Of a stretch of 64,000 nucleotides of DNA, positions 8,510 to 63,560 are shown piece by piece (position 1 is the stretch's first letter; each line of letters begins with the position of its first letter). A program made the position numbers and the translations under genes. This stretch comes from Stomorhina lunata (Eukaryota > Arthropoda > Insecta > Diptera > Rhiniidae), in assembly GCA_933228675.1 (NCBI GenBank), contig OW121743.1:16635384-16699383 (forward strand), written 5' to 3'. The notes beneath the pieces were generated by a model, which saw nothing but the letters and a program-made list of their open reading frames with translations, was not told where the DNA came from and searched no databases.

Positions 8510-11500
8510 TTATGATAATCCTAAAAGTGTTCTTAACATTAACAATTGTGGCTTAGGAAGTGGTTTTGTCAAAACATCTGCTATCATTTTATCTGTAGGA
8601 CAATATTTAAGATTTACAAAATTTTGTATACAAAAATCTTTTACAAAATGATACTTTATATCAATATGTTTTGACCTAGCATTGAATTTTTCATTTAATA
8701 CCATCTTATTGCAACTCTGATTGTCTTCCATTATTGTAATTGGTGTATTCACTATATGGCCCATTTCTTGTAGAAGACCATGTATCCACTTTACTTCTTT
8801 ACAAGCTTCTGATAGTGCTATAAATTCTGCTTCTGCTGTTGATAGTGAGACACAACTTTGCTTTCGACACGACCAGTTCACAACACCTCCATTTAAATAA
8901 AATACATAACCACTGTGAGATTTTCTATCAGTTTTGTTTTCACCCCAATCTGCATCTACATATCCAAATAAATTATTATTTTCTGTTGAACTACTTAACT
9001 TGAGTGATAAATTAGCTGATCCTTTTAAGTATTTTATAACTCTCTTTACTTCATTCCAATCTTCTTTAGATGGTGCTTGAATTTTCTGTGCTAATATTGC
9101 TACACTGGCTGTTATATCTGGTCTTGTATTTACAGATAAATATAAAAGAGATCCAATAGCTTTCTGGTAAATTTTATTATCTAATAATCTTTCTGAATCC
9201 AAAGTTTTGTTATATGAAGGAATTAATGGTATATCTGAAGTTTTAGATTCTTGAAGACCAAATTCATTTACAATTTTCCTGATATACTGTTCTTGACTTA
9301 ATAAAAAATTTCCATCTTTATCTTGAGTAACTTCCATTCCCAAATAGTGTTTAATTGGTCCTAAATTTGACATGACGAATTTTGAGTTTAACATCTTAAA
9401 AATTTCTTCAATAAATTTTATATCCTTACTTGCAATAATCATATCATCAACATATACTAAAATATAATCCATACCTTCTTTGGATTTCCTGGTATACAAA
9501 CAAGGATCTAATATACTTTGCTTAAATTTAAATTCAATTAACGCTTTATGAGTACATTGATTCCACGAACGAGCCGCTTGCTTTAACCCATATAAACTCT
9601 TCTTGAGTAAACACACTTTATTGGGATTTTGTTCTGAAATAAATCCTGGAGGCTGTTTCATATAAATTGTTTCTTCCAAATCTCCATTTAAAAATGCAGT
9701 CTTAACATCAAAATGAAATACCTTCATTTTTTGTTTACCAGCAATTGAAAATAAAATTCTTGTTGTAGTCTGCTTAACAACTGGTGCGAATACTGCATCA
9801 TAATCTATACCATATTTTTGATTGTATCCTTGTGCTACAAGTCGTGCCTTAAATCGATCTATTTCTCCTTTTTCATTTAACTTTTTCTTATAAACCCATT
9901 TGCAGCCAATTGCCTTACGGCCGGGGGGAAGATCAACAAGGTCCCAAGTATGGTTTTCCTTAATAGATTTAAGCTCCTCCTGCATGGCACCAATCCACTG
10001 AGATTTCTCCTCCTTAATTGAAATAGCTTCATTGAAATTACTTGGATCTGGGGTCATGATTGCCGAATTTATCTGATACCGACTTGGACGCACACCTTTA
10101 TTCACTCTTGTAGACACACGTTGAACTGGAACAGGACTTTGTATAGCATCTTCAAAATTTTCACTAGTACCTGACCATTCAGAATCCGAAACTTGATTGC
10201 GAGACGTAGTACTGCTAACGCTTACAACAGTAGAATCAGATTCACCTTCACTTTCATCTATATGACTAACATCCTGATTTTCTGTTTCACTTTCAATGTC
10301 TTCTACATTATCTGCACTAACTTCTACATCCGCTGAAGGTACTTCGTTAACCTTAGGACTACTCATAGGAAAATATACTACATCTTTACTATTTTGTGGA
10401 ATTTCTTTAATGGTTTCTTTTTGATCTATAAAAACAACATCACGTGAAATCTGGACTTTATTTGTTGTTGGATCACAAACTCTTAAACCCTTTGAGTTAA
10501 AATCAACACCAATAAAAATTTTCTGAATTGCCTTCAAATCAAGTTTCTTCCTTTTTTCTTTTGGAACATGAACATAACATAAAGAACCAAATGTATGAAT
10601 ATCTTTTAATGAAGGTTTCATACCATATCTTATTTCATAAGGCGTCTTTGAAATACTTCTTGATGGTAAGCGATTTTGAACGTAATTCGCGAACATCAAA
10701 GCTTCACCCCAATAACTTTTATCTAAATTTGAATCAATCAACATACATTTAACCATCTCCATCAAAGTACGATTCTTTCTTTCAGCGACTCCATTTTGTT
10801 GTGGGCTGTATGGTACGCTATACTGAATTTTAGTTCCACATCTTGATAGAAACTGTTTAACATTTTCGGCTATATATTCCCCACCTCTATCTGATCTAAT
10901 TGTCTTTGGATAACATCCCACCTGATTTTTTACTAAATTCCAGAATTCAACTATTTTGCCATAAACTTCACCTTTTGTCTTTAATAGATAAACTGCACAA
11001 TATCTGCTATGATCATCAATGAATGTAACAAAATATTTATAACCACTGCAAGTCAAAGGAGATATAGGGCCGCAAACGTCAGAGTGAATTAAATCAAAAC
11101 AGTTTTCAGACCTTGAAAAACTTTCTTTAGGGAACGGACTTCTTGCAAGTTTGCCTTGTAAACAAATTTCACAAATATTGCTATGGTCTTTACACTCAAT
11201 TATCTTTATATCTTTTGCTAAGTCATTTTGTATCAGCTTCTTAATACCATCCTCATTATGATGACCAAGAACACGATGCCAATAGTGAATACAACCTTTA
11301 TTACAATTTTGAACCGTAAAAGCTTTTTCAGAAATTGCATTAAAAGTGTACAAACTATTCTTAAGATAAGCCTTACAAATAATCTTATCATTTCTTTCTA
11401 AAATACATTCATTTTTAACAAATTTAACAATAAAACCCTTTTCTGTAATTTTCCTAACCGATAATAAGTTTGAATTAAAATCTGGAACATAATATACATC

Positions 11501-12457
11501 ACCAATAGTTAAAGTTACACCTCTGGTCTTGATTTTACAAACTCCTTTACCCTTAGCTTGAGAACTGTTTCCATTTGCAACACTAATTGATTGACCGCAT
11601 TCATTATAATTGATTTCACTAAAAAGCTTCTTGTCATGGGCAATATGACAACTTGCACCCGAATCTACTATCCATGTACCTTGAGTTTCACCAGAAAATT
11701 GAGTCATCAGCACGTATTTATCTTCATTATCTTCAACTTTTTCAATAATATTTGCTGTTTTCTGATTTTTCTTGCACCAGTTTATGTATTTATAACAATC
11801 CTTCTTGAGGTGACCACTCTTCTTACAAAAGAAACAAGTTTTGCCTTCAAATTTCTTCACTGTTTTTGACTTTAAAGCGGAAACGTTAGAAGAATCATTT
11901 CGGGATGCTCTTTTGAAATATTCTTCCAATAATTTTGCTTTAACCATTTCCATTGTCAAATCTTTATCTGGTCTTACCTCAAGAGCAGTAATTAAACTAT
12001 CATAGCTAGATGGAAGGCTGCTTAAAATCATGGAAACTTGCCAATCTTCTGAAAAATCTTGATTTCCAATTGCTTTTAATTTATCGAACAGTTCCATCAT
12101 TGAATTTATGTGCAATTCCATATTCTCACCTTCGCCTAATTGCATGCTGCATATTTTTCGCATTAGGTGCACTTTTGAACTTAATGTGACACGTTCATGC
12201 TGTTTCTGTAGGTTTTGCCATGCATCCTTAGCTAATCTTTCATTGCGAATATGAATGAGTTGAGAATCTTCAACACATAAACTCAAGACAGCAAAGGCTT
12301 CCATATTTTTCTTCCTCCACGAATCTGTGTCTTGAACAGGATCTTCAAATACATACCACAGATCTTCTTTAATGAGGAACATCTTCATCTTGAATTTCCA
12401 GTTGTAATAGTTGTCTTGATTGAGCTTTTCTATTCCATAAAATTTATTTTCGCTCAT
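8510..12457 (-). CDS. Copia gag-pol polyprotein, 1315 aa
   Basis: A single uninterrupted frame in Ty1/copia order. A Gag region (about 1-200) is followed by a CCHC zinc knuckle near 207-221 (CFFCKKSGHLKKDC) and an aspartic protease with WIVDSGASCH near 262. Next come the integrase HHCC (about 390-435) and core (HSDVCGPIS, then SDRGGEY, then PQQNGVAERKNRTL). The reverse transcriptase has KARLVAQGYNQ, VKTAFLNGDL and the catalytic YVDDM. RNase H carries DADWGENKTDRKSHSGY, AEAEF and EDNQS, and a KHIDIKYHF block lies near the end. Length is usual for copia. Start is the first ATG after the primer site. All catalytic motifs I can check are present, so it is likely functional. Confidence 0.97.
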   Translation of the reverse strand: MSENKFYGIEKLNQDNYYNWKFKMKMFLIKEDLWYVFEDPVQDTDSWRKKNMEAFAVLSLCVEDSQLIHIRNERLAKDAWQNLQKQHERVTLSSKVHLMRKICSMQLGEGENMELHINSMMELFDKLKAIGNQDFSEDWQVSMILSSLPSSYDSLITALEVRPDKDLTMEMVKAKLLEEYFKRASRNDSSNVSALKSKTVKKFEGKTCFFCKKSGHLKKDCYKYINWCKKNQKTANIIEKVEDNEDKYVLMTQFSGETQGTWIVDSGASCHIAHDKKLFSEINYNECGQSISVANGNSSQAKGKGVCKIKTRGVTLTIGDVYYVPDFNSNLLSVRKITEKGFIVKFVKNECILERNDKIICKAYLKNSLYTFNAISEKAFTVQNCNKGCIHYWHRVLGHHNEDGIKKLIQNDLAKDIKIIECKDHSNICEICLQGKLARSPFPKESFSRSENCFDLIHSDVCGPISPLTCSGYKYFVTFIDDHSRYCAVYLLKTKGEVYGKIVEFWNLVKNQVGCYPKTIRSDRGGEYIAENVKQFLSRCGTKIQYSVPYSPQQNGVAERKNRTLMEMVKCMLIDSNLDKSYWGEALMFANYVQNRLPSRSISKTPYEIRYGMKPSLKDIHTFGSLCYVHVPKEKRKKLDLKAIQKIFIGVDFNSKGLRVCDPTTNKVQISRDVVFIDQKETIKEIPQNSKDVVYFPMSSPKVNEVPSADVEVSADNVEDIESETENQDVSHIDESEGESDSTVVSVSSTTSRNQVSDSEWSGTSENFEDAIQSPVPVQRVSTRVNKGVRPSRYQINSAIMTPDPSNFNEAISIKEEKSQWIGAMQEELKSIKENHTWDLVDLPPGRKAIGCKWVYKKKLNEKGEIDRFKARLVAQGYNQKYGIDYDAVFAPVVKQTTTRILFSIAGKQKMKVFHFDVKTAFLNGDLEETIYMKQPPGFISEQNPNKVCLLKKSLYGLKQAARSWNQCTHKALIEFKFKQSILDPCLYTRKSKEGMDYILVYVDDMIIASKDIKFIEEIFKMLNSKFVMSNLGPIKHYLGMEVTQDKDGNFLLSQEQYIRKIVNEFGLQESKTSDIPLIPSYNKTLDSERLLDNKIYQKAIGSLLYLSVNTRPDITASVAILAQKIQAPSKEDWNEVKRVIKYLKGSANLSLKLSSSTENNNLFGYVDADWGENKTDRKSHSGYVFYLNGGVVNWSCRKQSCVSLSTAEAEFIALSEACKEVKWIHGLLQEMGHIVNTPITIMEDNQSCNKMVLNEKFNARSKHIDIKYHFVKDFCIQNFVNLKYCPTDKMIADVLTKPLPKPQLLMLRTLLGLS

Positions 12458-33085: not shown

Positions 33086-35425
33086 ATGACATATGGTGAT
33101 ACAATTTGTAAGATGTATTTTAAAAAAAGATCAGAACCAAGCAGTGAATTAAGTAGTTCAGACAAGGAAAGTCCTGAAGATGGTTCTAGCTCTGGAAAAC
33201 GGAGGTGTTACGATGACGAAGTAACAAAGAGACAACACAATGAGGAATATAAATTTGCTAAAAGTGTGGTTGGTGAAGATGGAACACCTGAGTTTGATCG
33301 TTTCTTAGATGTTTTAATCAGAGAAAAGAAACTAGAATTTCTGAAAAGAAATGGAATAAATCCTGCTAATATGTCCAGTATATTACATCGAGCACGAACT
33401 AAAGCTGCAAAAGCTTTTAAAGACTTATATGATCTTTGGATTGATGCCGAAGGAAATAAAACTGAATACTTAAAAACACTAGAAGCAAACCGAATAAATC
33501 TATCTAGTATCTCGAGTATTTTAAGTAAGGCAGGATCAAAGGCTGTAAAAGCTTTTAAAGAATTATACGATCTTTGGTTTTATCGGAATGGAACAAAAAC
33601 ACGATACTTAATAAAACTAAAAGAAAGTGGTGTGGATCTAGTACGTATAACTAGTATTGTGCATGGAGCAGCAGCTGAAGCTCCTAGAGCTTTTAAAGAA
33701 TTATACGATCTTTGGTTTGAGCAGAACGGCAATAAAACATGTTACTTAATAAAACTAGAAGAAAATGGAGTAGATTTAGTTCGTATGTCTAGTATCTTAA
33801 GTGGAGCTGGAGTTATGGCGGCAAAAGCTTTTAAAGAATTATATGACCTTTGGTTTGATGCAGAAGGAAATAAAACTCAATATTTAAAAACTCTAGAAAA
33901 AAAAGGGGTAAATCTTTGTAATGTCTCAAGTATTTTAAGTAAAGCAGGAGCTAATGCTTCAAAAGCTTTCAAAGGCTTATATTACCTTTGGTTCGATTTG
34001 AAAGGGGAAAAAACACGATACTTAATAAATCTAGAGGAAAATGGAGTAGATCTAGTTCGCATGTCTAGTATCTTAAGTGGAGTAGGAGCTAATGCTACAA
34101 AAGCTTTTAAAGAATTATATGAACTTTGGTTTGATAAAGAAGGAAATAAAACTCAATATTTAAAAACTCTACAAGAAAACGGTATGAGTTTAGCTAATAT
34201 GTCCAGTATTTTACATAGAGCAAAAACTAAAGCTGCCAAAGCTTTTAAAGAATTGTTCGATCTTTGGTTTGATCAGCAAGGAAACAAGACAAGATATTTA
34301 AAAACTCTAGAAAATGAAGGAATAAATCTTTTAAATATAACGAGTATTTTAGGGGGAGCAGGAGTTAATGCTGCAAAAGCTTTTAAAGAATTATATGATC
34401 TTTGGCTTGATTCAGAAGGAAATAAAACTCTATACTTAGAGCACTTTATTAGGAACGGAAAGGGGGAAGAAAGTTTTATGCTACATAACTTATCTGGTAT
34501 GTTAAGTAGGGCAGGAGTTAAGGCTAAGGAAGCTTTTGAAAATTTGCATAATATGTGTTTTAATGAAAAAGGGGAAAGAACCGAACTTTTAGATGATTTC
34601 TATAGGGAAGGTTTTAAGCCCAGCAACTTGTCTTGTTTGTTATCTGGCTCAGGGTTTCATGCTTCTGCTAATTTAAAAAACTTGCATAAACTTTTTTTTA
34701 ATGACAAAAGGGAAAAAACCGAGCTTTTAGATGATTTCTATAAGGCTGGTTTTAGACCATGTGATTTGTGTAGTATAGTAAGTGGATCAGCCGATAGTTT
34801 AAAAGAATTTCATAATTTTTGTTTTATAGCAGAGACAAAAATTTATTTATATAATTTTTTAAATAAAGATCAAGGTTTTACGGCAAGTCATTTATCTGGT
34901 ATATTACATGGAGCAAAAGCTAATATTTGTCCAGCTTTAAAAAATTTCCATGATGTTTGTTTTGATGAGACGGGAAACGAAACACAGCTTTTAGTTGATT
35001 TTTATGACGAAGGCTTTGGACCGGATTTCCTATTAAATGTCTTATCCATGGCAGGAAATAATGCCTCTTCTATTTTAAGAAATTTTCATACATCATGTTT
35101 TAAAGAAAATTATTTAAATCACTTCTTTGTCGAGGAAACACTTTTTACGCCGAAAAATCTGTCAAAAAAGCTATTATATGGAGTTGGGATTAATTTGTGT
35201 CAGATATTTGAAAAGTTACATGATCTTTGTTTTGATAGGGCAGGAAATAAAACAAAATATTTAAATAAGCTTATTAAAAATAAACGGCGTGATCTATTTA
35301 ATATACTGCATGAAAAAGTTAGAGGAGTTCCTTTTAAATCCTTGGATAATGTATCACTTCAACAACATTATATTAGTGGAATAGAGAAAATCAAAAAAGA
35401 AGACATTAATGAAATTGCGTGGTAG
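33086..35425 (+). CDS. Unrecognised 779-aa protein of ~14 tandem 46-residue helical repeats
   Basis: I do not recognise this family. One intact frame without introns. Residues 1-60 are polar and low complexity with basic runs (GKRRCYDDEVTKRQ), possibly nuclear targeting. Repeats 1-8 (residues 89-456, exactly 46 aa each) follow SSIL-xx-AG-xx-A-x-KAFKELYDLWFD-xx-GNKT-x-YLKTLE-x-NG. Repeats 9-14 (about 464-731) are a diverged class with LHDLCFDE-x-G and LLDDFY-x-x-GF-x-P. The pair after Ile-Leu/Val varies (HR, SK, HG, SG, SK, SG, HR, GG, then others), while most else is conserved. Two short helices per repeat are likely, giving a solenoid. The start could also be Met10. A polyadenylation-like AATAAA lies at about 35539. 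A decayed partial copy is at 35680-35822. Bacterial-symbiont origin or a TALE-like nucleic-acid binder are hypotheses only. Confidence 0.75.
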   Translation: MTYGDTICKMYFKKRSEPSSELSSSDKESPEDGSSSGKRRCYDDEVTKRQHNEEYKFAKSVVGEDGTPEFDRFLDVLIREKKLEFLKRNGINPANMSSILHRARTKAAKAFKDLYDLWIDAEGNKTEYLKTLEANRINLSSISSILSKAGSKAVKAFKELYDLWFYRNGTKTRYLIKLKESGVDLVRITSIVHGAAAEAPRAFKELYDLWFEQNGNKTCYLIKLEENGVDLVRMSSILSGAGVMAAKAFKELYDLWFDAEGNKTQYLKTLEKKGVNLCNVSSILSKAGANASKAFKGLYYLWFDLKGEKTRYLINLEENGVDLVRMSSILSGVGANATKAFKELYELWFDKEGNKTQYLKTLQENGMSLANMSSILHRAKTKAAKAFKELFDLWFDQQGNKTRYLKTLENEGINLLNITSILGGAGVNAAKAFKELYDLWLDSEGNKTLYLEHFIRNGKGEESFMLHNLSGMLSRAGVKAKEAFENLHNMCFNEKGERTELLDDFYREGFKPSNLSCLLSGSGFHASANLKNLHKLFFNDKREKTELLDDFYKAGFRPCDLCSIVSGSADSLKEFHNFCFIAETKIYLYNFLNKDQGFTASHLSGILHGAKANICPALKNFHDVCFDETGNETQLLVDFYDEGFGPDFLLNVLSMAGNNASSILRNFHTSCFKENYLNHFFVEETLFTPKNLSKKLLYGVGINLCQIFEKLHDLCFDRAGNKTKYLNKLIKNKRRDLFNILHEKVRGVPFKSLDNVSLQQHYISGIEKIKKEDINEIAW
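33350..35278 (+). repeat. 138-bp coding tandem repeats within the 779-aa gene
   Basis: Fourteen codon-phased units. The first eight keep the exact 138-bp length and share long identical words such as AAAGCTTTTAAAGAATTATA. Units 4 and 6 have the same helix-1 residues (VDLVRMSSILSG), which suggests recent copying between units. Confidence 0.85.
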
Positions 35426-35679: not shown

Positions 35680-35822
35680 TAAAAGTGTGGTTGGTTAAGG
35701 TGGAACAACTAAGTTTGATCATTTCTTAATACTAGAAGTAAACCAAATAAATCTTTCTATTATCTCGAGTATTTTAAGTAAGGCAGGATCTAAGGCTGTA
35801 AAAGCTTTTAAAGAATTGTACG
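35680..35822 (+). pseudogene. Fragment of the tandem-repeat gene with internal deletion
   Basis: It matches 33258-33316 (AAAAGTGTGGTTGGT, TTTGATC-TTTCTTA) joined to about 33477-33575 (CTCGAGTATTTTAAGTAAGG, AAAGCTTTTAAAGAATT). About 160 bp are lost between the two parts and a stop falls at the join. It shows that the family has been duplicated locally. Confidence 0.85.
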
Positions 35823-40400: not shown

Positions 40401-41631
40401 TCGAAAAGTTTTTCTTTCAAATCGAATTACATTATAACACAGAACTAGAACTGGGGCCAAATTACCGCATTCGATATAGATCGAAATCTTAGATATTTTC
40501 AAAATATTTATAAAGCCTACTTTAAGGATAATCAAAATTATTTAAAAGATGCACAGTTTACTATATTTTTTTTAAGTTATTTGCCAAAAGAACCGAATCA
40601 AATTGGATACCAAATTTCAATAAACTTTTTGCATCGAAGTAACTTTGAACATCCCTAAAGTAAACTCCACAATATTTGCTTAAAAGTCTGAGCTTTCGAT
40701 CGATATCGAATGCGGTAATTTGGCCCCTGAACTGGAATCAAACAAAAACTAATTCTGATTATACAATAATATGTATTTCTTTGGCTTTAAAAAAATAATT
40801 TTTGTTCTTTTTTAGTATTCCCCACACTCCGATTTGGGCCGTGTAGTGCAAGCAGTTATTCGCGAGTTTGAACGTTTCCCCCCACCTATACTAAAGGCCA
40901 ACAGTCCCATTAACATACCCACTTCCAATAATTCCTCGCTTACAGCTCAGCAAACAATGCTGCAAATGTCTCATCATTCCCATTCATATCATCACCACCC
41001 CTATCCCCTACAAGTGGCCAAATCCTTAGATAGCGGTACTAGCAGTGGTGCCTCCAATAGTACCAACAGCAGCAAAGAGACCTCTCCACATGATCCCTCC
41101 AATTCTGCATCACCCCGTCTTAATGATAGCAATTTACCCAATTTATCCACCCTTTCCTTGGAAGAACTCAAGCAACTAGATAATGATCCAGAGTTCTTTG
41201 ATGATTTCATTGAGGAAATGTCGGTAGTTCAACAGCTGAATGAGGAATTGGATTCTATGATCAATCAGGTTGAATCTATATCAAAAGAAAATGAGACCAA
41301 GGAAACCCATTTGGTAGAATTGAAACGTAAACTAAGTGATGATGTTACTACACTCAAGCATTTGGGCGAGAAATGTGATCAGTTAAATAAGAAGTATCTT
41401 AAGAAATCGGAGGAATATAATCCTCAGCACATCAGAGAGCTATTGCAAATAGCAGCCTCCAATGCAGATACCGATTGTGAACGTCATGTGGAACAGTTTT
41501 TGAATGGCAAAATAGATGTGCAAACATTTTTGCAAAGCTATACACACTGCAAGAAACTGAGTTCAGAGCGTAAAGCTAAAGAAGAAAGATTGGGCCAACA
41601 GTTAACGGCATTGGAAAGAGCAGGCATTTAA
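37416..41631 (+). CDS. Vps37A: Vps37A, ESCRT-I subunit, ~362 aa, three exons
   Basis: Exons: 37416-37495, 37565-37757 and 40816-41631; introns are GT/AG and phases join. Residues 1-115 form the UEV-like fold found in VPS37A but not other VPS37 paralogs (YCIHFESGGRNF, VNFPNEKPKL, HMWVNASTGEV, LLNYSPHSDLGRVVQAVIRE). A His/Ser/Asn-rich linker follows at about 115-200. The Mod_r domain (about 205-362) is coiled-coil, with ELKQLDNDPEFFDDFIEEM and IRELLQIAASNADTDCERHV. The protein is a stalk component of ESCRT-I, which sorts ubiquitinated cargo at endosomes. Length is close to the human protein (397 aa from memory). Intron 2 (3.06 kb) holds transposon debris. The ATG at 37416 is the first in frame; a second lies two codons on. 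Confidence 0.93.
38530..39560 (-). pseudogene. LINE fragments in Vps37A intron 2
   Basis: Minus-strand frames show an RT segment with KCRILYKGKLCNPFEVTTGV, the QGCILSPILFILVID block (38800-39024), and upstream pieces with NQFGFRENRSCVDLI (about 39120-39180) and IKRLKRNKFSGNDIISAEML (about 39415-39475). The part 38530-38815 instead matches the 3' end of the family at 61743-63560 (ETRTFLRFSRTARMWNKLP). This looks like two different LINE remnants side by side. Stops and frame changes are frequent. Confidence 0.75.
40018..40130 (-). repeat. Interspersed repeat family B, copy 3
   Basis: Reverse complement of the blocks at 26630-26760 and 32912-33036 (TTGTTGTAACTGCGATATTA on the plus strand, then CCGAGTCGTTCCGGTACGAA). 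Confidence 0.7.
40454..40726. mobile_element. Harbinger-like MITE, 273 bp
   Basis: Inverted ends of ~34 bp (GGGCCAAATTACCGCATTCG) differ at one or two bases and are flanked by CTG at 40451-40453 and 40727-40729. The 3-bp duplication and GG start match the Harbinger element at 13109-14797, though the end sequences differ. No coding potential. Confidence 0.75.
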
Positions 41632-61742: not shown

Positions 61743-63560
61743 TTTTTTTTATTTAGCACCAGCACTCAGGGGATAACCCCTACTTATGCAATGCATTGTG
61801 TTGGAACTAGGAAAATAGGTTATGGGAGGGTGGATAGATGGAGTAGTGTTTATGGACATTTGATTTAAACTTCCCTATATTGCAACTGGCAGGGAAAATT
61901 TCTGCGGAAAGTAAATTCCACATACGAACTGTAAGACTAAAGAATGAATTTTCTCTGTTGTATGTTGTTCTGTCTACTGGCCTATCGACTACTTAGGGAT
62001 GAGCTCTAACAGACAGACGTGTATTGCGTAAAAAAATTCGAATTTCGGGAACGAGTTCCCTGTTTTCATTAGAGTACATTTTAAAGTAGTAACGATAGAA
62101 TAGTGTGATACAACCCACATTGCGACGGTGCTCTAGTGAATCAATAGAGTTGGATACCCTACTGTCAAGAATAAGCACCTTCGCCCTCTCCTGCACTCGG
62201 TCGAGAAGCTCCAGCCCATACATGAGAGGTCTATTCCATTTTCGGTCGAGTAAAGGTGGTGTAAATAGAAAGGAGATCAGATGGAGTGAAATATCTCTTA
62301 CACCGTTTAAGAAAAACGAGGCACTTGAATGCTTCTTTCGACACTTGAAAAATGTAGTCAGTCCAACGGACATCATGTCCAGAATATCAAGAGTATCCGA
62401 TTCCTCGATATTTTCACCACCCATTAATACAGATGAAGTAACATGATCCGCCGTACGTTTGTGCGTAAACATACAACACTGAATTTTCCGCGCATTAAAA
62501 TCCACTCTATTCGCACGACCCCATTCTGAGATTGTTTCTAAATCGCGGTTTAATGATTCATTCATATTTTCCCTCATAGTGCCAATCTCTAAAAGGTTTG
62601 GTCTATGATTGAATGAATACGAATGGCAAATGTTACTATCATCTGCAAAAGAGTAGATAGGATTGGAAGATTGACGTAGAAGGTCGTTTATGAAGATAAG
62701 AAATAGAGTTGGAGAAAGAACAGAGCCTGAATTTAGCTTGAACTCGTTTGATGAGATTCCATCTACAACAACTCTTATAGTGCGATCTCTGAGGAAGCTC
62801 GATATAAATCGAGAGAAGTTATCACCGACACCAAAAGCAATAAGTTTTGATAGAAGTACTACGTGTCACACTCTATCAAACGCCTTGGAAATATCCAGAC
62901 CCACAACTTTACATTCGCCAAAACGGTGTATTGAATGACACCATTTTTCCGAAAGGAAGGCTAGCAGGTCTTCCGTAGAGCGTCCCCTATGAAGTCCATA
63001 CTGGCAGTTGCTTAGTAGGTTGTTAGATTCCAGATATTTAACAAGATGGTGGTTAACCATACTCTCCAATACTTTGGAGAGTGCAGAGCAAATTGTTATT
63101 AGGCCGTAATTTTCAGGTTTGGTAGCCTCACCCTTTTTAGGAATTGGCGTTACATTAGCAACCTTCCAACACCGAGGAAATTTACCAGCATGGTACAAGG
63201 TGCTGAAAAGGTTAGCTAATGGGCGCAAAAGCGTCGAACAGCACTGCTTCAAGACCATTGCTGGAATACCATCCGGCACTGACGACTTGTTTATGTTGAG
63301 ATCTGCTAAAACCCTTTTTACAGAACGGGCGCGAAAGAATATCTTTGGCATAGTTATTCAGATATTCTTTCGAGCTCGGGCGGAGGCTGAGTGCTTTCCG
63401 GCAAGCGAGAATTGCTTGCAAATAATTCAGCTAAAAGGTCAGCTTTATCAGCCGGGTCAGTGAATGATTGACCATTCTTTAAAAGAGAAGAAATTGTAGA
63501 ACTAGCTTTATTCTTGACTTGCTTAACAGTTTCCTGGTATAAATCACTTCCTATAGTAGT
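61743..63560 (-). pseudogene. 5'-truncated LINE with reverse transcriptase (Jockey/CR1-type)
   Basis: The minus strand reads from about 63545: a linker with FTDPADKADLLAELF, then RT motifs. These include NKSSVPDGIPAMVLK, WKVANVTPIPKKGE, PENYGLITICSALSKVLE, QYGLHRGRSTEDLLAFL and VVGLDISKAFDRV (to 62866). A TGA follows that point, then come FKLNSGSVLSPTLFLIFIND, the catalytic FADDS near 62650, and a C-terminal block EHRRNVGCITLFYRYYFKMY. The poly-A is the T run near 61743-61750 on the plus strand. At least one stop and one small deletion disable it. The fragments at 17230 and 38530 belong to the same family. Confidence 0.85.

Follow-up and report, generated by a model that had tools for sequence, protein, structure and literature searches.

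The repeat gene and its surroundings

Positions 33086-35425 on the forward strand of a 64,000-nucleotide window from the rhiniid fly Stomorhina lunata (positions 16,635,384 to 16,699,383 of contig OW121743.1, assembly GCA_933228675.1) form a single uninterrupted frame from ATG to stop that encodes a repeat protein of 779 aa, here referred to as P0001. An earlier note, made from the letters alone, had described the frame as fully open and intronless, which is correct as long as 'intronless' is said of the ORF, and had counted 14 tandem repeats, the same number of units as is marked by an HMM seeded on the protein's own repeats and then iterated on relatives. Re-reading the two residues at unit positions 9 and 10 (the pair) returned the identical list of 14 pairs, given unit by unit below. 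The eight repeats of exactly 46 aa in that description are a slight undercount: in ten units the distance to the start of the following unit is 46 residues, the start-to-start spacings being seven times 46 followed by 51, 46, 46, 42, 46 and 44. The features of the gene and its immediate flank are as follows.

33086-35425, + strand: ORF of the repeat protein P0001, 779 aa (translation, homologs)
33086-33238, + strand: N-terminal low-confidence linker, residues 1-51 (model; alignment by eye)
33239-33361, + strand: predicted helical cap ahead of the array, residues 52-92 (model; motif by eye)
33362-33499, + strand: repeat 1, pair HR
33500-33637, + strand: repeat 2, pair SK
33638-33775, + strand: repeat 3, pair HG
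33776-33913, + strand: repeat 4, pair SG
33914-34051, + strand: repeat 5, pair SK
34052-34189, + strand: repeat 6, pair SG
34190-34327, + strand: repeat 7, pair HR
34328-34480, + strand: repeat 8, 51 aa, pair GG
34481-34618, + strand: repeat 9, pair SR, opening the six diverged C-terminal units, which were aligned over 30 copies
34619-34756, + strand: repeat 10, pair SG; 24 of 30 copies have C at the first place
34757-34882, + strand: repeat 11, 42 aa, pair SG; S in 30 of 30 and G in 21 of 30 copies
34883-35020, + strand: repeat 12, pair HG; H in 30 of 30 and G in 29 of 30 copies
35021-35152, + strand: repeat 13, 44 aa, pair SM; S in 27 of 30 and M in 24 of 30 copies
35153-35290, + strand: repeat 14, pair YG
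35680-35822, + strand: decayed partial second copy of the ORF

Residues 1-51 align by eye with a basic, NLS-like stretch of the relative P0012 and of long Wolbachia proteins, a stretch that is eroded in P0001, and the cap corresponds to a segment that by eye reads ...KSVVGxxGTPxFxxFLD... in the relatives. Judged by the domain matches in the window, the DNA around the ORF is eukaryotic in content: a copia-type gag-pol ORF of 1315 aa is open at 8510-12457 on the reverse strand, a Mod(r)-domain ORF at 40834-41631 on the forward strand provides a host landmark near the repeat gene, and a reverse-transcriptase match lies at 62866-63351 on the reverse strand. The GC content of the ORF (31.7%) is close to that of the window (32.0%).

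Relatives and fused domains

A search with P0001 returned at least 37 proteins at E<=1, a lower bound because scoring was limited to the 7986 candidates with the most shared words; the best-covering match is 57% identical over 94% of the query. With these matches the repeat protein is not a chance product. They include proteins of bees, an ant, wasps, Bicyclus, Rhagoletis and orb-weaver spiders, together with P0016, P0022 and P0029 from Wolbachia and P0038 from an uncultured Roseibium. A plasmid search added one record, from Robbsia andropogonis, whose 1356-aa protein (L001:5629-9699) carries no fewer than 15 47-aa units and ends in a C80 peptidase; the gene is flanked on both sides by transposase genes. 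Searching with this protein gave 18 proteins, 14 of them new, including five Wolbachia proteins of 1546-2296 aa and a Glossina austeni record, and searching with P0038 gave 16 (13 new), the SET proteins P0055 and P0056 among them. Altogether 65 other proteins of the same kind were gathered from bees, an ant, wasps, a butterfly, Rhagoletis, orb-weaver spiders, Wolbachia and a few other bacteria. The remark that the repeats are unlike any known fly family was fair, but the family to which they belong has these 65 collected members. Unit lengths among the relatives are 39, 41, 43, 44, 46, 47 and 58 aa; P0059, P0060, P0062 and P0063 share the motif in units of about 39-44 aa, and the C-terminal part of P0062 appears protease-like by eye.

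Several relatives carry further domains beside the array. An OTU domain in P0041, a giant Wolbachia protein, matches wMelOTU at E 4.5e-10, a second in P0013 lies just below the Pfam cut-off (E 2e-4), and domain searches place SET domains in P0029 and P0055 and a C80 domain in P0039; P0016 is a further SET protein of Wolbachia. Between the OTU domain and the array, P0041 and the long copies hold units that look nuclease-like by eye. P0055 and P0056 join a SET domain to near-identical 41-aa and 58-aa units and represent natural fusions of an array with a methyltransferase-type domain. Scans of genome contigs confirmed none of 166 stretches in the first round and one of 27 in the second, a 1156-aa ORF of Wolbachia wPpe (L002:4366-7836) that has the same length as P0056. 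In the phage collection P0001 had no match, and the sole match of P0041 covers residues 47-217, the OTU region, in phage WO; residues 5-238 of this N-terminal region match phrog_9049, a phage family of 4700 positions, at E 1.1e-35. From its sequence, a link of the P0041 OTU region to phage WO is possible. Three scans of viral contigs confirmed 0 of 17, 0 of 220 and 0 of 23 stretches.

Loose basic-motif patterns match in 11 of 12 proteins, P0039 being the one without, and by the same kind of loose pattern NLS-like motifs lie outside the array in P0041, P0046, P0038, P0054, P0055 and P0056. The only such match in P0001 falls within a repeat. P0012, which is laid out like P0001, has an NLS-like stretch immediately before its array; the pattern finds seven units there and the eye an eighth, against 14 in P0001.

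TAL_effector (PF03377) is absent from the HMMER matches at E<=10 of both P0001 and 15 repeat pieces, in a search whose filters may drop weak matches. Ntox33 (PF15533) scores 37.9 bits in P0001 against a cut-off of 28.4, but covers residues 77-130 only and falls on different repeats in P0003, P0006, P0041 and P0046, so that it looks like a repeat artefact. Matches to rSAM_mat_DynA, Put_DNA-bind_N, DUF3846 and other Pfam and NCBIfam entries were set aside because they span about one repeat or less, two at most, and their places differ between relatives. Odorant-binding-protein matches among PDB sequences (E 0.18) were rejected, as were three of the four plasmid matches of P0055, Klebsiella Sel1-like repeat proteins that are likely compositional; the fourth is from Robbsia.

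Phylogeny and the state of the gene

In a tree built from the C-terminal 300 aa of 44 rows, which is read here by its clades and not by counts of its groups, Wolbachia and arthropod copies interleave. Well-supported clades unite Wolbachia pipientis with Rhagoletis (99/99), a Wolbachia MAG with Trichonephila (100/100), the Wolbachia of Ennomos with Bicyclus (100/99), that of Myopa with Trichonephila and Araneus (100/100), another Wolbachia with Glossina and Trichonephila (100/100), and that of Apotomis with Lasioglossum and one further row (100/99, internal order unresolved). P0001 is sister to P0012 (100/99) inside this Wolbachia-arthropod radiation, on a branch of 0.28 as compared to 0.11 for P0012. 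Because the copies interleave, repeated transfer from Wolbachia is the best reading of the tree, and we infer that the direction was from bacterium to arthropod. The copies of Rhagoletis, Lasioglossum and Bicyclus sit on contigs of 101.6, 9.6 and 10.1 Mb and are therefore very probably nuclear; the spider and Glossina rows that hardly differ from Wolbachia may reflect contamination or recent insertion. The horizontal transfer from a symbiont that the earlier note had entertained finds backing in the interleaved tree, and on this phylogenetic evidence a symbiont origin of the sequence is well supported.

Downstream of the ORF, the partial copy at 35680-35822 matches separate parts of the ORF, one stretch of 49 nt being 90% identical and another of 95 nt 92.6% identical, and carries an internal deletion and an in-frame stop. 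When half of the 7.4% divergence is placed on the ORF, the chance that an unconstrained frame of this length would have stayed open is about 7e-5, a figure that assumes a local duplication, neutral decay of the copy, and an assumed mutation spectrum and indel rate. The long open frame beside its decayed copy favours constraint without proving it. Between the first eight units of P0001, dS exceeds dN in 27 of 28 comparisons and equals it in one; this is not used as evidence, since much of the divergence may predate the transfer. Upstream of the ORF the window holds no match to any part of P0001-P0038, the 38 proteins used as queries.

Predicted structure of the array

P0001 was modelled with AlphaFold2, using 28 of the 37 relatives as alignment rows. 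The best of five models has a pLDDT of 80.5 and a pTM of 0.68, and the other four range from 70.5 to 59.3. A typical unit of the model has three helices of 7, 15 and 8 residues, the first two joined by a loop and the last two by a short bridge. The pair separates helix 1 from helix 2 in 10 of the 14 units; a single helix runs through it in units 1, 2, 3 and 7, and in unit 12 its first residue ends helix 1. The worry, voiced beforehand, that the pair might be buried away from any groove is not borne out at the level of secondary structure, at which the helices are broken at the pair in these 10 units.

Foldseek against the PDB gave 101 matches, three of which reach E<=0.001; all three are TALE-type, namely dHax3 (2.2e-8) and two TOD6 entries, and the next are XptA1 (0.16) and MTERF1 (0.45). 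VIA-align, a second look at the candidates from Foldseek, places TALE-type structures in rows 1-39 of its best 50, with mTERF next at 6.3; 33 of these rows are titled TAL effector, TALE, dHax3, RVD, AvrBs3, PthXo1 or BurrH, and six are TOD or DdCBE entries, which we take to be TALE fusions. A separate model of the Roseibium relative with its 39-aa units, folded with 12 other distant rows, shows two-helix units with the pair in a four-residue loop of the regular units, at a pLDDT of 68.2 overall and 78-94 in the array. TALE-type entries occupy rows 1-38 of its VIA-align result, the last (6.8) tied with mTERF at 6.1, and one of its 73 Foldseek matches reaches E<=0.001, again dHax3, with mTERF next at 0.014. 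Beside TALE-type and mTERF, the fold lists of the two proteins show no other prominent family.

For the register of the alignments we assume that position 505 of dHax3, the position named in entry titles, is the second residue of its pair. In 28 of the 39 TALE-type rows of P0001 the start offsets range from +1 to +7 and the end offsets from -3 to +3; the alignment thus ends in phase within about two helical turns, where an exact equivalence of the pair with the RVD at TALE positions 12-13 needs -3. Among 11 hand-picked of the 38 Roseibium rows, five have offset 0 and the other six end outside the regular units or out of phase. Taken as a prediction, the TALE-type fold of the array is well supported. 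The TALE-like solenoid suggested in the earlier note is supported by the predicted fold and the top PDB matches, but the pair is not the standout variable site and HMMER detects no homology to TALEs.

Variability of the residue pair

Ranked by variability among the 45 adjacent residue pairs of the P0001 unit, the pair is 19th over 10 units and 14th over seven; in the latter set positions 29, 16, 35, 30, 14, 13 and 2 vary more than the pair. The near-total conservation that had been claimed outside helix 1 and the pair is not found in P0001, and a near-invariant unit with a variable pair is closer to the truth in the homogenised arrays of relatives, where the pair ranks first in P0039, P0040 and P0055 (tie) and second in P0056 (tie). 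Its alphabet is narrow: among the 363 units of P0001-P0038 (38 proteins), S, H, N and G prevail at position 9 and G, R and K at position 10.

Across 44 arrays of at least five units, which are related and hence not independent counts, the mean variability percentile of the pair is 0.84; it rises to 0.92 in arrays with at least seven units and a mean identity of at least 0.60, with the pair in the top 10% in 9 of these 12. In the 35 arrays of 46-aa units the pair comes first of 45 (mean percentile 0.82), closely followed by the adjacent pair at 29 (0.81) and those at 2 and 16 (0.79); it drops to third in the 26 of them that have seven units or more. Taken alone, position 10 is 19th among the 46-aa arrays. 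The first-place residue of unit 9 is S in 17 of 30 relatives, and that of unit 14 is Y in nine and H in nine. Over the six C-terminal units of these relatives the pair columns are mixed and on average of middling conservation. The pair is not unusually conserved between orthologs, and we therefore claim no specificity-site signature from these units.

A model for P0001 and its alternatives

We think it reasonably probable that P0001 is a symbiont-derived, enlarged TALE-like nucleic-acid-binding solenoid that has been kept as an array alone. In each 46-residue unit a loop bearing the two variable residues would connect a short helix to a longer one, followed by a short third helix, and the units would stack into a superhelix resembling that of TAL effectors. 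In the bacterial ancestor the array would anchor an attached OTU, SET or peptidase domain to the DNA of the host nucleus, and the pair would take part in the choice of bases; the gene would have entered the fly lineage from Wolbachia or a close relative. Enzyme tethering on nuclear DNA is most likely the ancestral job because arrays of Wolbachia and a few other bacteria are fused to enzymes and many have NLS-like motifs; the fold, the position of the NLS-like motifs outside the array and the kind of fused domains support such tethering in bacteria. P0001, which is without enzyme domains, was probably retained as a DNA- or RNA-binding protein with a competing or regulatory role; with the array alone left, a binding or competing protein is likelier than an enzyme. 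The predicted fold and the variability together suggest DNA as the ligand and the pair as its reader; the protein may also act in the nucleus and have a function in the animal.

The same fold is compatible with a dead or dying nuclear insertion of Wolbachia DNA, open by chance and functionless in the animal. The N-terminal domains of the 38 proteins have left no trace upstream in the window, the N-terminal basic stretch is eroded, a decayed partial copy adjoins the ORF, and the branch of P0001 is long beside that of its sister (0.28 against 0.11), all of which fits decay; the chance of about 7e-5 that an unconstrained frame would have stayed open, under the assumptions given above, weighs in the other direction, and we regard a dying insertion as unlikely without dismissing it.

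Another reading accepts the symbiont origin but takes the array for a protein-binding helical solenoid, acting for example in the ubiquitin pathway or on chromatin, whose TALE-like superhelix would be convergent and whose pair would be a tolerant loop site. Sequence homology to TALEs is not detectable, surface positions 2, 16 and 29 are about as variable as the pair in the 46-aa arrays, and the OTU and peptidase fusions would fit a protein target as well. However, TALE-type and mTERF, the two fold families that match best in each of the models, are both nucleic-acid-binding, and the alphabet of the pair stays narrow over the 363 units of 38 proteins; we find this reading rather improbable. The three-helix units would be nearer to mTERF or pTERF than to TALE if P0001 were an mTERF-like nucleic-acid-binding protein, but TALE ranks higher than mTERF for either model and the units of the 39-aa relative are built of two helices, so that an mTERF-like identity appears very improbable. 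The TALE-like solenoid of symbiont origin can also be placed in a wider frame, which we offer tentatively and with some doubt: an unrecognised superfamily of programmable TALE-like DNA readers in animal symbionts might serve Wolbachia and others as a natural epigenome editor that aims OTU, SET or nuclease-like domains at selected places in host chromatin, and might have been captured many times by arthropods, with P0001 still binding DNA under selection.

Significance and comparison with known systems

The known cases of TALE-type DNA reading come from bacteria associated with plants and fungi, some marine sequences and one fungal record. If the proposed reading is true, a fold-level relative of TALEs joined to SET or OTU domains in Wolbachia would offer a testable route from symbiont to host chromatin. 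Its occurrence in bees, wasps, flies and spiders would further mean that animals have acquired arrays of this type, and a repeat scaffold with another unit length would become available for study.

TALEs, whose units measure 33-35 aa, are the best fold matches of P0001 and the Roseibium protein among solved structures, with dHax3, AvrBs3, PthXo1 and BurrH in the match lists; RipTALs and MOrTL, also of the TALE type, are absent from these lists. Like the TAL effectors of Xanthomonas and the Bat/BurrH proteins of Mycetohabitans, P0001 is predicted to combine a short helix, a two-residue variable loop and a long helix in a superhelix of TALE type, which recurs in two separate models; the pair lies at the turn between short and long helix in 10 of the 14 P0001 units and in the regular Roseibium units. 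In contrast to TALEs, the P0001 units have 46 aa and a third helix, and those of its relatives span 39-58 aa; the alphabet of the pair is S/H/N/G followed by G/R/K, HMMER detects no homology, and the relatives carry OTU, SET or peptidase fusions and occur in Wolbachia and animal genomes. The TALE hallmark of a hypervariable pair within a near-invariant unit is found in P0039, P0040, P0055 and P0056, but not in P0001. The three-helix units of mTERF and pTERF, nucleic-acid-binding proteins and the next-best fold family, resemble those of P0001 but reach a lower Z than TALE in both models, and no hypervariable loop pair is described for them in the section of PMC11417379 consulted.

In the literature searched, which lay largely outside subscription papers and preprints, we found no report of TALE-like proteins in Wolbachia or arthropods. 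STAR proteins have TALE-like repeats too diverged to have been recognised initially (Hu et al. 2024, PMC11417379), and the one from Apophysomyces is reported there as the first TALE-like protein of a eukaryotic species; STAR units have 34 positions and largely keep the TALE RVDs and code, unlike P0001. The main text of PMC11417379 is free of the terms Wolbachia, Roseibium, insect, symbio*, SET domain and OTU; it describes MIRAGE, a DNA-binding mosquito repeat protein, as having a disordered repeat region that is not TALE-like. A term search of PMC5472282 finds neither Wolbachia nor insects. Wolbachia CifB and related OTU/REase effectors have been discussed together with their OTU domains and their homologs in Trichonephila, Nephila and Araneus (PMC11342252, in whose main text the word 'TALE' is absent). 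P0041 shares the OTU domain with these CifB-related effectors, and its repeat array is a separate module.
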